Shown here: positions 39,943 to 42,136 of the stretch, in pieces
Layout of the letters: the number at the start of each line of letters is the position of its first letter
How positions within the stretch are numbered: the first letter of the stretch is position 1
Origin: Terriglobales bacterium
GTDB lineage: Bacteria; Acidobacteriota; Terriglobia; Terriglobales; Acidobacteriaceae
Length of the DNA: 42,136 nucleotides
NCBI GenBank assembly: GCA_035457425.1
Contig: DATIBR010000018.1
Location: 1-42,136, forward strand
Reading direction: 5' to 3'
The notes under the pieces: generated by a model
Told to the model about the DNA's origin: nothing
Seen by the model: only the letters and a program-made list of their open reading frames with translations
Databases searched by the model: none
Translations under genes and position numbers: made by a program

Positions 39943-40025
39943 AATGGGGAGCAGAAAAGCTGCCGGGGATGGGAATCAGGGGAGTCAGCCTCTTTTGGCT
40001 AAGCTATTGATTTCGTGAGGTTTGT

Positions 40026-40102
40026 TGTCGGGCTGTTGGTCGTCGGCCGTCGGCCGCGACCAGTCGGGTCGGCCGACGACCGAGGGCCGAAGACCGAAGA
40101 CT
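40026..40102. repeat. Eleven in-phase heptamers ending at the base before the asnS stop
   Basis: 77 bp read as 11 consecutive 7-mers in one phase. The left units have core GTCGG (for example TCGTCGG, CCGTCGG) and the right units have core GAxGxCC (for example GACGACC, GAAGACC), nearly the reverse complement. Inside it GGTCGTCGGCC (40038-40048) and GGCCGACGACC (40071-40081) are a perfect 11-bp inverted repeat. The last base (40102) is next to the asnS TAA (40103-40105). Confidence 0.85.
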
Positions 40103-41425
40103 TTACGGGTAGATCCGCGTCAGCGTGCGCGCGAACGGGATGGTCTCCCGCACGTGCTCGAGGCCGCAGATCCAGGCGACCGCGCGCTCGATGCCCATGC
40201 CGAAGCCGGCGTGCGGCACCCCGCCGTACTTGCGCAGGTCGAGGTACCACTTGAAGGCCTCTTCCGGCAGGTTGTGCTCGCGGATGCGCTGCTGCAGCTT
40301 CTCGTAGGAGCCGATGCGCTGCGAGCCGCCGATGATCTCGCCATAGCCTTCCGGCGCGAGCACGTCGACGCAGAGCGCCTTGCTCGGATCGGCCGGGTCG
40401 GGCTCCATGTAGAACGCCTTCACTTGCGCGGGATAGCGGTGCACCATGACCGGCTTGTCGTACTTGCTCGACAAGTAAGTCTCGTCGGGCGAGCCGAGGT
40501 CGCCGCCCCACTCGAACTTGTGCTCCAGCTCGCCCTTGGAGTGGCCCTCCTGCAGCGCGGCGACCGCCTGGTCGTACGAGATGCGGGGGAACGGCGGCGT
40601 GATCTTCTCGAGCTTCGCGATGTCGCGGCCGATGGTGTCGAGGTCCGGGTGCCGGCGCTCGACCACGCGCTGCACGATGTAGCTGATGAACTGCTCGGCC
40701 AGCTCCATCAGGCCGTCGAGCTCGAGGTAGGCGACCTCGGGCTCCACCATCCAGAACTCGGTGAGGTGACGGCGCGTCTTCGACTTCTCCGCGCGGAACG
40801 TCGGGCCGAACGAGTACACCTTGCCCAGCGCCATCGCCGTGGCCTCGATGTAGAGCTGGCCGCTCTGCGTGAGGTAGGCCATGTCGTTGAAGTACGGCAC
40901 CTCGAAGAGCGTGCTGGTGCCCTCGCACGCCGCGGGCGTGAGGATGGGCGGGTCGGTGAGCACGAAGTCGCGCTCGTTGAAAAACTCGCGCGCGGCGTTC
41001 TCGATCTCGGCGCGGATGCGCAGGATGGCGGCCTGGCGCGGCGTCCGCACCCAGAGGTGGCGGTGCTCCATCAGGAAGTCGACGCCGTGCTCCTTGAGCG
41101 AGATCGGGAACGGGTCGCTCTCCGGCACTTTCTGGACGACCTTCACGTCCTGCACGTCGAGCTCGTAGCCGCCGGGCGCGCGCTTGTCGGCGCGCACCTT
41201 GCCGGTCACGATCACGCTCGACTCCAGCGTGAGGTTCTTCACCGTCTCGAACGCCTCGGGCGCGGCGTTCTTCGGCACGATGCCCTGGATGACGCCGCTC
41301 CCGTCGCGAAAGATGGGGAACAGCAGCTTGCCGCTCTCGCGCAGGTTGTAGAGCCATCCGCGCAGGGTGACGACTTCGCCGTCGTGGCGGCCGATCTGCG
41401 TGATGCTGGTGACAGGTGCGTCCAT
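40103..41425 (-). CDS. asnS: Asparaginyl-tRNA synthetase
   Basis: A protein of 440 residues, class IIb. The N-terminal OB-fold anticodon-binding domain has [25 protein letters not shown]-type sequence (about 15-45). The catalytic core has motif 2 [21 protein letters not shown] (about 215), with Glu of motif 2 intact, and motif 3 [21 protein letters not shown] near 405, ending with TLTRIYP. The lack of an aspartate-specific insertion and the ending RIYP support Asn over Asp specificity. Start taken at 41425; an ATG four codons upstream (41437) is possible. TAGAAT lies about 13 bp before 41425, so the mRNA may be nearly leaderless. Confidence 0.95.
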
Positions 41426-41438
41426 AGGAGAACCCATG

Positions 41439-41461: not shown

Positions 41462-41957
41462 GCCTTAAGCCACGGATTCCACGGCTCTCACGGATTTTGT
41501 CTTGGGTCTTGTCTTGACGGGCGGGAGCGGCCTAACCTCCGGTCACCATGAAACACGAAGAGCTTACGGAGAAGATCATCGGTGCTTTCTATGCCGTGTA
41601 TAACGAGCTCGGCAACGGGTTCCTGGAGTCGGTCTACGAGGAATCGCTGGCCATTGCCTTCGTCGAAGCGGGGATCCGGTACCACCGGCAGTTCCCAGTG
41701 CCGGTGTTCTTTCACGGCAAGCGTGTAGGGGACTTCAAAGCCGACTTCGTTGTTGAGGGGCTCGTCCTGGTCGAGTTGAAAGCTTGTTCCGTCCTTGATA
41801 AGGCGCATGAAGCGCAGGTGATCAACTACTTACGCGGCACCAAGATCGAGGTAGGACTGCTGCTGAACTTTGGGCCGAAAGCACAAGTCAGGCGAATCGT
41901 GCTAGACAACGAAAGAAAAGAAATCCGTGTTCATCCGTGGCAATCCGTGGCTAAAGC
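41462..41957. mobile_element. GxxExxY gene bounded by ATCCGTGG inverted repeats (candidate mobile unit)
   Basis: Left end 41462-41498 and right end 41920-41957 are about 37-bp inverted repeats. Read inward to outward, each has three ATCCGTG-type units followed by GGCTTAAGGC (left) or GGCTAAAGC (right). The enclosed 420 bp is the GxxExxY gene; the right repeat is part of its coding sequence. Local base composition is AT-richer than the flanking genes. No target-site duplication is evident, and no transposase is present. The unit lies exactly in the gap between asnS and the next minus-strand gene. Confidence 0.55.
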
Positions 41958-41967
41958 GGGACTCTAG
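41548..41967 (+). CDS. GxxExxY protein (PD-(D/E)XK nuclease-like)
   Basis: A protein of 139 residues. The name-giving motif is Gly24-Phe-Leu-Glu27-Ser-Val-Tyr30, and a PD-(D/E)XK-like core follows with Asp66 (FKADFVV) and Glu76-x-Lys78 (VELKA). LDKAHEAQVINYLRGTKIEVGLLLNFG-type sequence is also typical. The family is frequent in environmental genomes, has a predicted nuclease fold and no established role. The last 16 residues (KEIRVHPWQSVAKAGL) are encoded by the right inverted repeat. It is the only plus-strand gene between minus-strand asnS and the isomerase-like gene. Its TAG stop overlaps the stop of that gene through a shared CTAG. Confidence 0.88.
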   Translation: MKHEELTEKIIGAFYAVYNELGNGFLESVYEESLAIAFVEAGIRYHRQFPVPVFFHGKRVGDFKADFVVEGLVLVELKACSVLDKAHEAQVINYLRGTKIEVGLLLNFGPKAQVRRIVLDNERKEIRVHPWQSVAKAGL

Positions 41968-42136
41968 CGATTCGCGGCGGCGGAGACGGCCAGCTCGAGC
42001 CGCGCATAGGTCTCGGCCATGCCGGCGACGATGTCCTGGCCCTCGCCGTCGATTTCCAGCAGCAGCGCCGGCGACTGGGGCGCGGAGTGCAGCAGGCGCA
42101 TGGTGTTGGCCCAGTCGATGTTCCCCTTGCCGGGCC
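41964..42136 (-). CDS. Sugar-phosphate isomerase/epimerase-like protein, C-terminal fragment
   Basis: About the last 56 codons of a gene that enters from the right edge. The frame reads PGKGNIDWANTMRLLHSA, then ALLLEIDGEG and a helical tail ending AAANR. The GKGxIDW motif followed by a strand ending in E is typical of the C-terminal part of xylose-isomerase-like TIM-barrel proteins (AP endonuclease family 2), where the Glu is a metal ligand. Substrate unknown. The stop codon (41964-41966) shares three bases with the GxxExxY stop. Confidence 0.7.
   Translation of the reverse strand, partial: PGKGNIDWANTMRLLHSAPQSPALLLEIDGEGQDIVAGMAETYARLELAVSAAANR

Follow-up and report, generated by a model that had tools for sequence, protein, structure and literature searches.

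The closest described counterpart of the locus presented here is the REPIN/RAYT partnership. RAYT genes lie between two inverted copies of a repeat with many further copies dispersed in the genome (PMC2817692), and the RAYT gene is described as single-copy (PMC3116915). The RAYT protein is an HUH tyrosine transposase (IS200/IS605-like), and REP repeats form hairpins singly. In RAYTs, the type of repeat goes with the lineage of the protein. Other known arrangements resemble the locus in part. MITEs and insertion sequences have inverted ends and occur as short gene-free copies besides a longer coding copy, in S23 intervening sequences (TIGR02436) the inverted ends form a long stem whose loop carries a small ORF, and homing endonucleases are encoded by small genes inside a sequence that the nuclease possibly recognises. 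The window, i.e., the whole stretch of DNA that was analysed (42,136 nucleotides of an Acidobacteriaceae genome), contains a GxxExxY gene between two inverted arms, with the following features:

40103..41437, minus strand: left neighbour, which we take to be asnS, asparaginyl-tRNA synthetase (name from the sequence-only reading)
about 41462..41497, minus strand: left inverted arm, three tandem units and the outer end GCCTTAAGCC
41548..41967, plus strand: GxxExxY gene, 139 amino acids, TIGR04256 / PF13366, predicted PD-(D/E)XK nuclease fold
about 41920..41957, plus strand: right inverted arm, ATCCGTG at 41923, 41933 and 41943 and the outer end GGCTAAAGC
41964..42136, minus strand: right neighbour, isomerase-like gene (label of the sequence-only reading), truncated at the contig end at 42136

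The sequence-only reading had recognised a GxxExxY gene with inverted flanks, and alignment of the arms together with the TIGR04256 and PF13366 scores proved this description correct. Its three units per arm were found as well (in the left arm CACGGAT at 41471, a degenerate CACGGCT at 41480 and CACGGAT at 41489), only the spacing was 9-10 bp instead of 10-11 bp. The arms can be aligned over about 35 nt. A general repeat finder reported the outer 15 nt only, at 93 %, and under a stricter scoring of flank matches the window's own arm pair was a low scorer and was missed. Among 20,000 random pairs of window 40-mers located 460 bp apart, two reached the score of the arms, and these two may overlap the element. 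The pattern ATCCGTGN3ATCCGTG, with up to two mismatches, occurred three times in the window versus an expectation of 0.41, one of the matches being located outside the element and having two mismatches; genome-wide, 38 matches were counted, and the reversed control gave 0. Translation of the right arm gives the C-terminus of the GxxExxY protein (..IRVHPWQSVAKAGL), as had been read from the letters before. Both neighbours are on the strand opposite to the gene, and its stop codon (TAG, 41965-41967) overlaps in the sequence with that of the isomerase-like gene (CTA, 41964-41966). The 496-bp unit had a GC content of 0.55 versus 0.67 for the window, and GC3 was 0.69 in the GxxExxY ORF versus 0.96 in asnS; the gene is indeed AT-richer than its surroundings.

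GxxExxY genes were present in 30 of 61 genomes (the window genome and 60 relatives). The window genome has seven GxxExxY loci, represented by eight match pieces of which two belong to one broken gene. At five of the six other loci, the arms consisted of strict tandem units, and the unit differed at each of them (CGCGGAT, CACAGAG, CACGGAG, CACAAAG, CGCAGAG); at the sixth, C142, the inverted match was shorter and weaker. The sequence-only reading had made its case depend on repeats accompanying GxxExxY genes in other genomes, which they did: the own flanks of the gene gave an inverted match with a score above 32 at 52 of 65 loci, versus 1 of 129 pseudo-genes placed by shifting the position of a real gene by 620 bp to either side. 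Thirteen loci had no convincing arms by the score used, including G024:C399 near a contig start, which was mislocated, counted as a miss and excluded from the protein tree. The 65 loci are 66 less one with short flanks. The limit of 32 was the 95th percentile of mispaired flanks in a run in which minus-strand loci had been left unturned, with little effect on the inverted-repeat test; the rerun with 65 loci used turned loci. In a further set of 80 loci from more than ten phyla according to the record titles, picked via the peptide pattern of one subfamily, 40 exceeded the 95th percentile of mispaired flanks, a hard test because these loci have one code in common. The pairing of gene and palindrome recurs over many bacterial phyla. 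Chance pairing of arms was considered separately and was ruled out by the controls with mispaired flanks, shifted genes and reversed patterns. Broken GxxExxY genes with stops or shifts (L002, L126, L127, L128) still had arms; arms thus outlive the gene.

Across the family, each arm has about three or four tandem units of 8-10 bp with the consensus CRCNRAK. The unit varies between loci and is mostly common to both arms of a locus. Of 161 loci, 117 had strict tandem units that allowed a label, and 75 had them in both arms; the 44 loci without a strict tandem pair include other unit shapes such as AGGGAT. Mapped on the protein tree, the last letter of the unit (..AT or ..AG) required 7 changes versus 40.0 ± 3.0 after shuffling, and none of 300 shuffles was as low. 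The fifth letter (13 changes versus 22.9) and the fourth letter (34 versus 50.7) were likewise below all 300 shuffles for the 117 labelled loci, and the second letter gave a weaker signal (30 versus 39.3, 3 of 300 shuffles as low). When only the window genome and its relatives were considered (57 labelled loci), the signals of the last, fifth and fourth letter held, that of the second failed (36 of 300). Apart from a few exceptions, proteins with GFLESVYE corresponded to ..GAT units and proteins with GPGLLESAY to ..AG units. At one locus, G000:C173, the gene was inherited in place: the locus is syntenic in G001 of the same genus and in five other genera, and its units read CACAAAG, CACGAAG, CGCAGAG, CACAGAG or CACTAAG, mostly altered jointly in both arms. 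Protein lineage and unit code were shown to change together.

The same arms without a gene were common in the window genome and in Luteimonas, as solo repeats of the kind that the sequence-only reading had proposed to look for. Where checked, the gene-free palindromes occur at dispersed chromosomal positions. Of 40 sites fetched from Luteimonas, 37 were palindromes with a length of 112-285 bp (median 197); two of the three dropped sites were one-sided and one was too long. The letters between the units vary among the copies, and in the 28 of 37 copies that were parsed in both arms they were the same in both arms 16 times, versus 1.2 expected on re-pairing. For all 37 copies, the mean score of the own arms was 30.1 versus 24.6 for re-paired arms, and the best of 5,000 re-pairings reached 28.4. 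For only 5 of the 37 left arms was the right arm of the same copy the best match, due to the one code throughout the Luteimonas copies. The one whole Luteimonas palindrome that was folded gave a near-perfect hairpin (z -16), its arms being near-perfect complements over about 40 bp. Single arms, one each, were unremarkable in folding (z -0.79 for a Luteimonas arm and 0.05 for the left arm of the window). Inspection by eye showed that Luteimonas palindromes frequently lie inside the loops of other palindromes, e.g., at L316, L322, L323, L332, L336 and L339 and also at L343-L345, L347 and L349, in many cases with an outer subfamily ending in ..CACGGATAGAGC and an inner one ending in ..CGCGGATCTGGCCGAGGC.

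To compare the number of palindromes with the presence of the gene, GxxExxY was searched in 52 Luteimonas genomes and matches to CRCGGATNNNCRCGGAT were counted; the reversed pattern gave 0 in every genome. The eight genomes with the gene had 6, 6, 53, 67, 130, 133, 140 and 149 arm motifs, a median of 98.5, versus a median of 0.5 in the 44 genomes without it (p = 7e-6, shared descent ignored). GxxExxY was single-copy in all eight. One of the two low counts belongs to G104, which has the gene with CGCGAAG arms and elsewhere, in the gap between what we take to be a crotonase-like and an accC-like gene, a CTTCGCG array; this array agrees in code with the resident gene and thus the low-count genome supports a matching of codes. 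The other, G106, is an exception with the gene present and only six motifs. G082 had 21 motifs with only a remnant at the site of the gene. In G113, also a Luteimonas, 58 CRCGGAT arm motifs were counted and no GxxExxY gene was found. Among the window genome and its relatives, divided by eye into those with GFLESVY-type and those with other genes, GGAT arrays had a median of 23 in the nine genomes with a GFLESVY-type gene versus 0 in the 52 others (p = 2e-4, shared descent ignored), exceptions being G003 and five others with 17-93 arrays and no gene of this type. GAG arrays had a median of 24.5 in the 30 genomes with GxxExxY versus 0 in the 31 without (p = 6e-7, shared descent ignored, and with a reversed control that was not clean, e.g., 44 reversed versus 106 matches in the window genome, perhaps because tandem arrays contain the pattern in another register). 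Here G003, G032 and G055 had arrays and no GxxExxY gene. Such exceptions can be due to gene loss or to slow decay, but also to another mover.

Orthologous sites without the gene or without a palindrome, another expectation of the sequence-only reading, were found in both groups. The gap 5' of asnS could be measured in 17 of 29 loci of relatives, identified by an isomerase-like peptide beside asnS. In this gap, G001 of the same genus lacks the gene and has a solo CACGGAT palindrome, G004 has a GxxExxY unit with another code in the opposite orientation, and G006 has a solo palindrome with the code of the G004 unit; in G018, G025, G007, G033, G035 and G010 the gap is 25-70 nt long and has no palindrome. 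Some other gaps hold other repeats. By coordinates, a GxxExxY gene is located directly 3' of asnS in four genera (L039 in G004, L042 in G006, L044 in G025, L050 in G024). Landing places that were used repeatedly thus adjoin asnS on either side, with units or solo palindromes of several codes on the 5' side. The crotonase-accC gap of Luteimonas (30 loci in 52 genomes) contained GxxExxY in seven genomes and was a plain short gap in several. Ten gene-free palindrome sites of G063 were queried and seven could be compared with relatives. The palindrome was absent at site 2 in G107, at site 3 in G082, G106 and G104, at site 4 in G082, at site 7 in G106 and G104, at site 8 in G106, G101 and G104, and at site 9 in G106, G101, G104 and G082. 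Scar-like remnants were seen in G072 at sites 8 and 9 and in G104 at site 5. At site 5, three species have palindromes with differing arms in one gap, with a near-perfect match in G063 and a partial one in G062 and G107, and one of these palindromes has co-directional genes on its two sides, the start codon of the following gene coming directly past the arm. Divergence of the flanks prevented the exact placing of insertion points at the Luteimonas empty sites.

In G004, asnS has a GxxExxY gene on either side, and the two copies are 79 % similar over 470 bp, from outer arm end to outer arm end; the second copy lacks the catalytic lysine. Because the similarity is bounded by the arms, the unit is a discrete element that has been mobile in the past. 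The pairs G000:C18/G001:C15 and G000:C31/G007:C28 are located at different places and match little beyond the unit, and many other pairs are syntenic. Arm-bounded duplication, matches hardly longer than the unit and the many syntenic pairs indicate that the unit comprises the element and its arms, moves rarely and is mostly inherited. Of the minimal mobile element proposed from the letters, the discrete unit stands, and the freely jumping single unit is unsupported: in Luteimonas the gene is single-copy, in seven of eight genomes at one orthologous site, and it is the gene-free palindromes that are numerous. As to target-site duplications, inspection of the two G004 copies by eye revealed no clear one.

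The window protein scored 131.9 bits with TIGR04256 (cut-off 35) and 134.5 bits with PF13366, PDDEXK_3 (cut-off 22). Conserved residues are E27, D66, E76, K78, Q90 and Y94, and the name-giving motif reads GEYDEKQY. D66, E76 and K78 were intact in 160 of 170 alignment rows, a number that includes four loci twice and one misframed row (G024:C399). An AlphaFold2 model based on 38 sequences (pLDDT 88.8) had a PD-(D/E)XK fold. The best Foldseek match was the Cas4 protein SSO0001 (4ic1; E 8e-4, Z 9.8); archaeal Holliday junction resolvases (Hjc) followed with E 0.012 and Z 6.5, both Z scores being calculated with VIA, and other nucleases of the superfamily were in between. Cas4/RecB-type and Hjc-type nucleases have the predicted fold and the D..ExK..QxxxY pattern in common with the protein; TIGR04256 differs by its size of about 120-140 amino acids and an N-terminal GxxExxY helix. 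Thus GxxExxY is predicted to be a PD-(D/E)XK nuclease with its catalytic residues kept. Ratios of dN/dS of 0.03-0.21 among six Luteimonas orthologues showed that the gene is under purifying selection. The PADLOC defence library yielded weak Cas4 matches only (E 0.0036), PHROGs gave no match to the protein, and the best hit of a sequence search of solved structures (E 0.19) was not meaningful. With the window protein as only query, relatives were present in 0 of 50,697 phage records and 8 of 72,556 plasmid records; by this near-absence no vehicle was found. In the full-text literature that was searched, the GxxExxY family was named only in passing and no function was found, PDDEXK_3 and six repeat strings had no mention, and no paper among the matches listed treated GxxExxY together with palindromes.

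A gene between two inverted repeats that are scattered in the genome is the arrangement of REPIN/RAYT, and the single-copy state of the RAYT gene has its parallel in the eight Luteimonas genomes. The copies per genome differ elsewhere, with seven loci of mostly different codes in the window genome and the duplicated pair in G004. In place of an HUH transposase, only PF13366 and TIGR04256 matched, with a PD-(D/E)XK fold. A GTAG or CGTC tag was absent from both arms of the window as read from the sequence. The REP repeats are hairpins singly, whereas the two GxxExxY arms that were folded alone are tandem arrays without a notable hairpin, which pair with a distant second arm, and, unlike in REPIN/RAYT, the unit code has diversified over many phyla. 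With the arrangement shared and the enzyme class, the tag and the hairpin repeat not shared, the element is REPIN/RAYT-like and not a RAYT; it would work like this system without being one. The gene-free palindromes have their arms in common with the longer, nuclease-bearing unit, which would make a MITE-like pair if this unit mobilised them. The GxxExxY unit differs from MITEs and insertion sequences in that it has no DDE or other known transposase, that no clear target duplication was seen, and that each end is an array of short units, with a tendency of the two sides to change jointly. S23 intervening sequences encode a protein of another fold, whereas GxxExxY units are located outside the rRNA, are built from 8-10-bp units and have many gene-free copies. 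From homing endonucleases they differ by the large number of unoccupied cognate sites.

Other small genes were observed in comparable palindromes. The window genome has seven TIGR02436 genes (S23 / four-helix-bundle), L139-L145 on C88, C72, C120, C164, C131, C180 and C178, and six of them are within inverted arms that scored 28-55 versus at most 25 for mispaired flanks. These arms mostly have a 7-bp period (ACTTCAG, ATTAGCG, CGTTTCC, ATTGCCG, GATTTGT). In the window itself, a solo-looking palindrome was seen by eye directly 3' of asnS at 40020-40110; it has 7-bp units (GTCGGCC / GGCCGAAGACCGAAGAC) and resembles the arms of TIGR02436 genes. In the crotonase-accC gap of Luteimonas, another small ORF lies between CCCTCCCCTTCAAGGGGAGGG palindromes in four genomes other than the seven with GxxExxY (L259, L261, L270 and L274), and the one of these four that was tested, L270, belongs to the endonuclease-like family DUF559. 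DUF559 is a third gene-in-palindrome type, at the GxxExxY site of Luteimonas.

We regard the 496-bp unit as the gene-bearing form of mobile palindromes, in a REPIN/RAYT-like partnership with a mostly vertically inherited nuclease, and assign this reading a probability of roughly 0.6. The gene in its palindrome has the look of a type of jumping DNA not described before, in which the code of the repeat tracks the lineage of the nuclease. According to this reading, the gene would sit in the loop of a palindrome at one or few places and the palindromes elsewhere in the genome would be gene-free. The nuclease would bind tandem arrays with its own code, in which each helical turn has roughly one unit, and may cleave the palindrome as an extruded cruciform or as a single-strand hairpin. 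Fold-back, with one arm being copied into the other, is proposed as the reason why the arms stay largely complementary while they diverge. A released or copied palindrome could then insert into intergenic gaps and spread. That the GxxExxY nuclease itself moves the palindromes is what we infer from these observations. A wider proposal, tentative and with chances a little short of even, is a new class of mobile DNA: palindromes of tandem units in many bacterial phyla, spread via a hairpin or cruciform by a code-reading GxxExxY nuclease, with the same plan in TIGR02436 (mostly 7-bp units) and DUF559, and forming an unrecognised superclass.

The movement could also be the work of others. A RAYT/IS200-type transposase, or host repair with template switching, may move or copy the palindromes, and GxxExxY would reside in them or police them, e.g., as a repair nuclease cutting cruciforms. 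Palindrome-rich genomes without the gene (G113, G003) fit this explanation, and so does the agreement of the arms within a copy, because template switching in quasi-palindromes would give agreeing arms as well; the Luteimonas site, moreover, also takes a palindrome-bounded DUF559 gene, so that what counts may be the site and not the enzyme. A passenger, however, need not show a code that follows its protein tree, as the GxxExxY units do, and the array of G104 at another site has the CGCGAAG code of the resident gene; on balance a passenger role is unlikely. The homing-like element considered by the sequence-only reading takes the palindromes as targets, the nuclease cutting the loop of an empty palindrome and its own gene being copied in. 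The asnS site, with a solo palindrome in G001 versus a gene-bearing one in the window genome, and the frequent nesting of palindromes in loops would agree with it. Yet a homing gene should fill the gene-free palindromes and this one does not: dozens of empty cognate palindromes face one gene copy, single in 8 of 8 Luteimonas genomes with the gene and at the same orthologous site in seven, and the G063 palindromes at sites that are palindrome-free in relatives are not explained. Homing was thus left unsupported and is highly improbable.

Very unlikely is an element at the RNA level, i.e., a transcript stem with the ORF in its loop that is processed or moved as RNA like S23 intervening sequences. 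The solo palindrome with near-perfectly complementary arms over about 40 bp is compatible with such a stem, and S23-type four-helix genes of the same genome are in comparable arms of mostly 7-bp period; the same gene-in-stem plan is described for a Coxiella IVS (PMC4990558). Against it stand the predicted PD-(D/E)XK fold of a DNA nuclease, the antisense position of the window gene to both neighbours and the Rfam families, 0 of which matched above the gathering score in 14 loci. The palindromes might finally be static features of the host, terminators or chromosome-organising signals, with the gene as an ordinary neighbour. They are mostly intergenic and, by eye, often follow a stop codon, as terminators would. 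Presence and absence at orthologous sites and the arm-to-arm duplication refute this as a full account, the site 5 palindrome between co-directional genes has a start codon right after its arm, and palindrome numbers go with the presence of the gene, which leaves a static role hardly credible.

The data suggest a role for GxxExxY proteins as partners of dispersed intergenic palindromes. If the partnership of nuclease and mobile palindromes is true, RAYT-type enzymes would not be the sole engines of REPIN-like populations, and the naturally varying, readable unit code would present protein-DNA recognition in this family as a directly testable problem.
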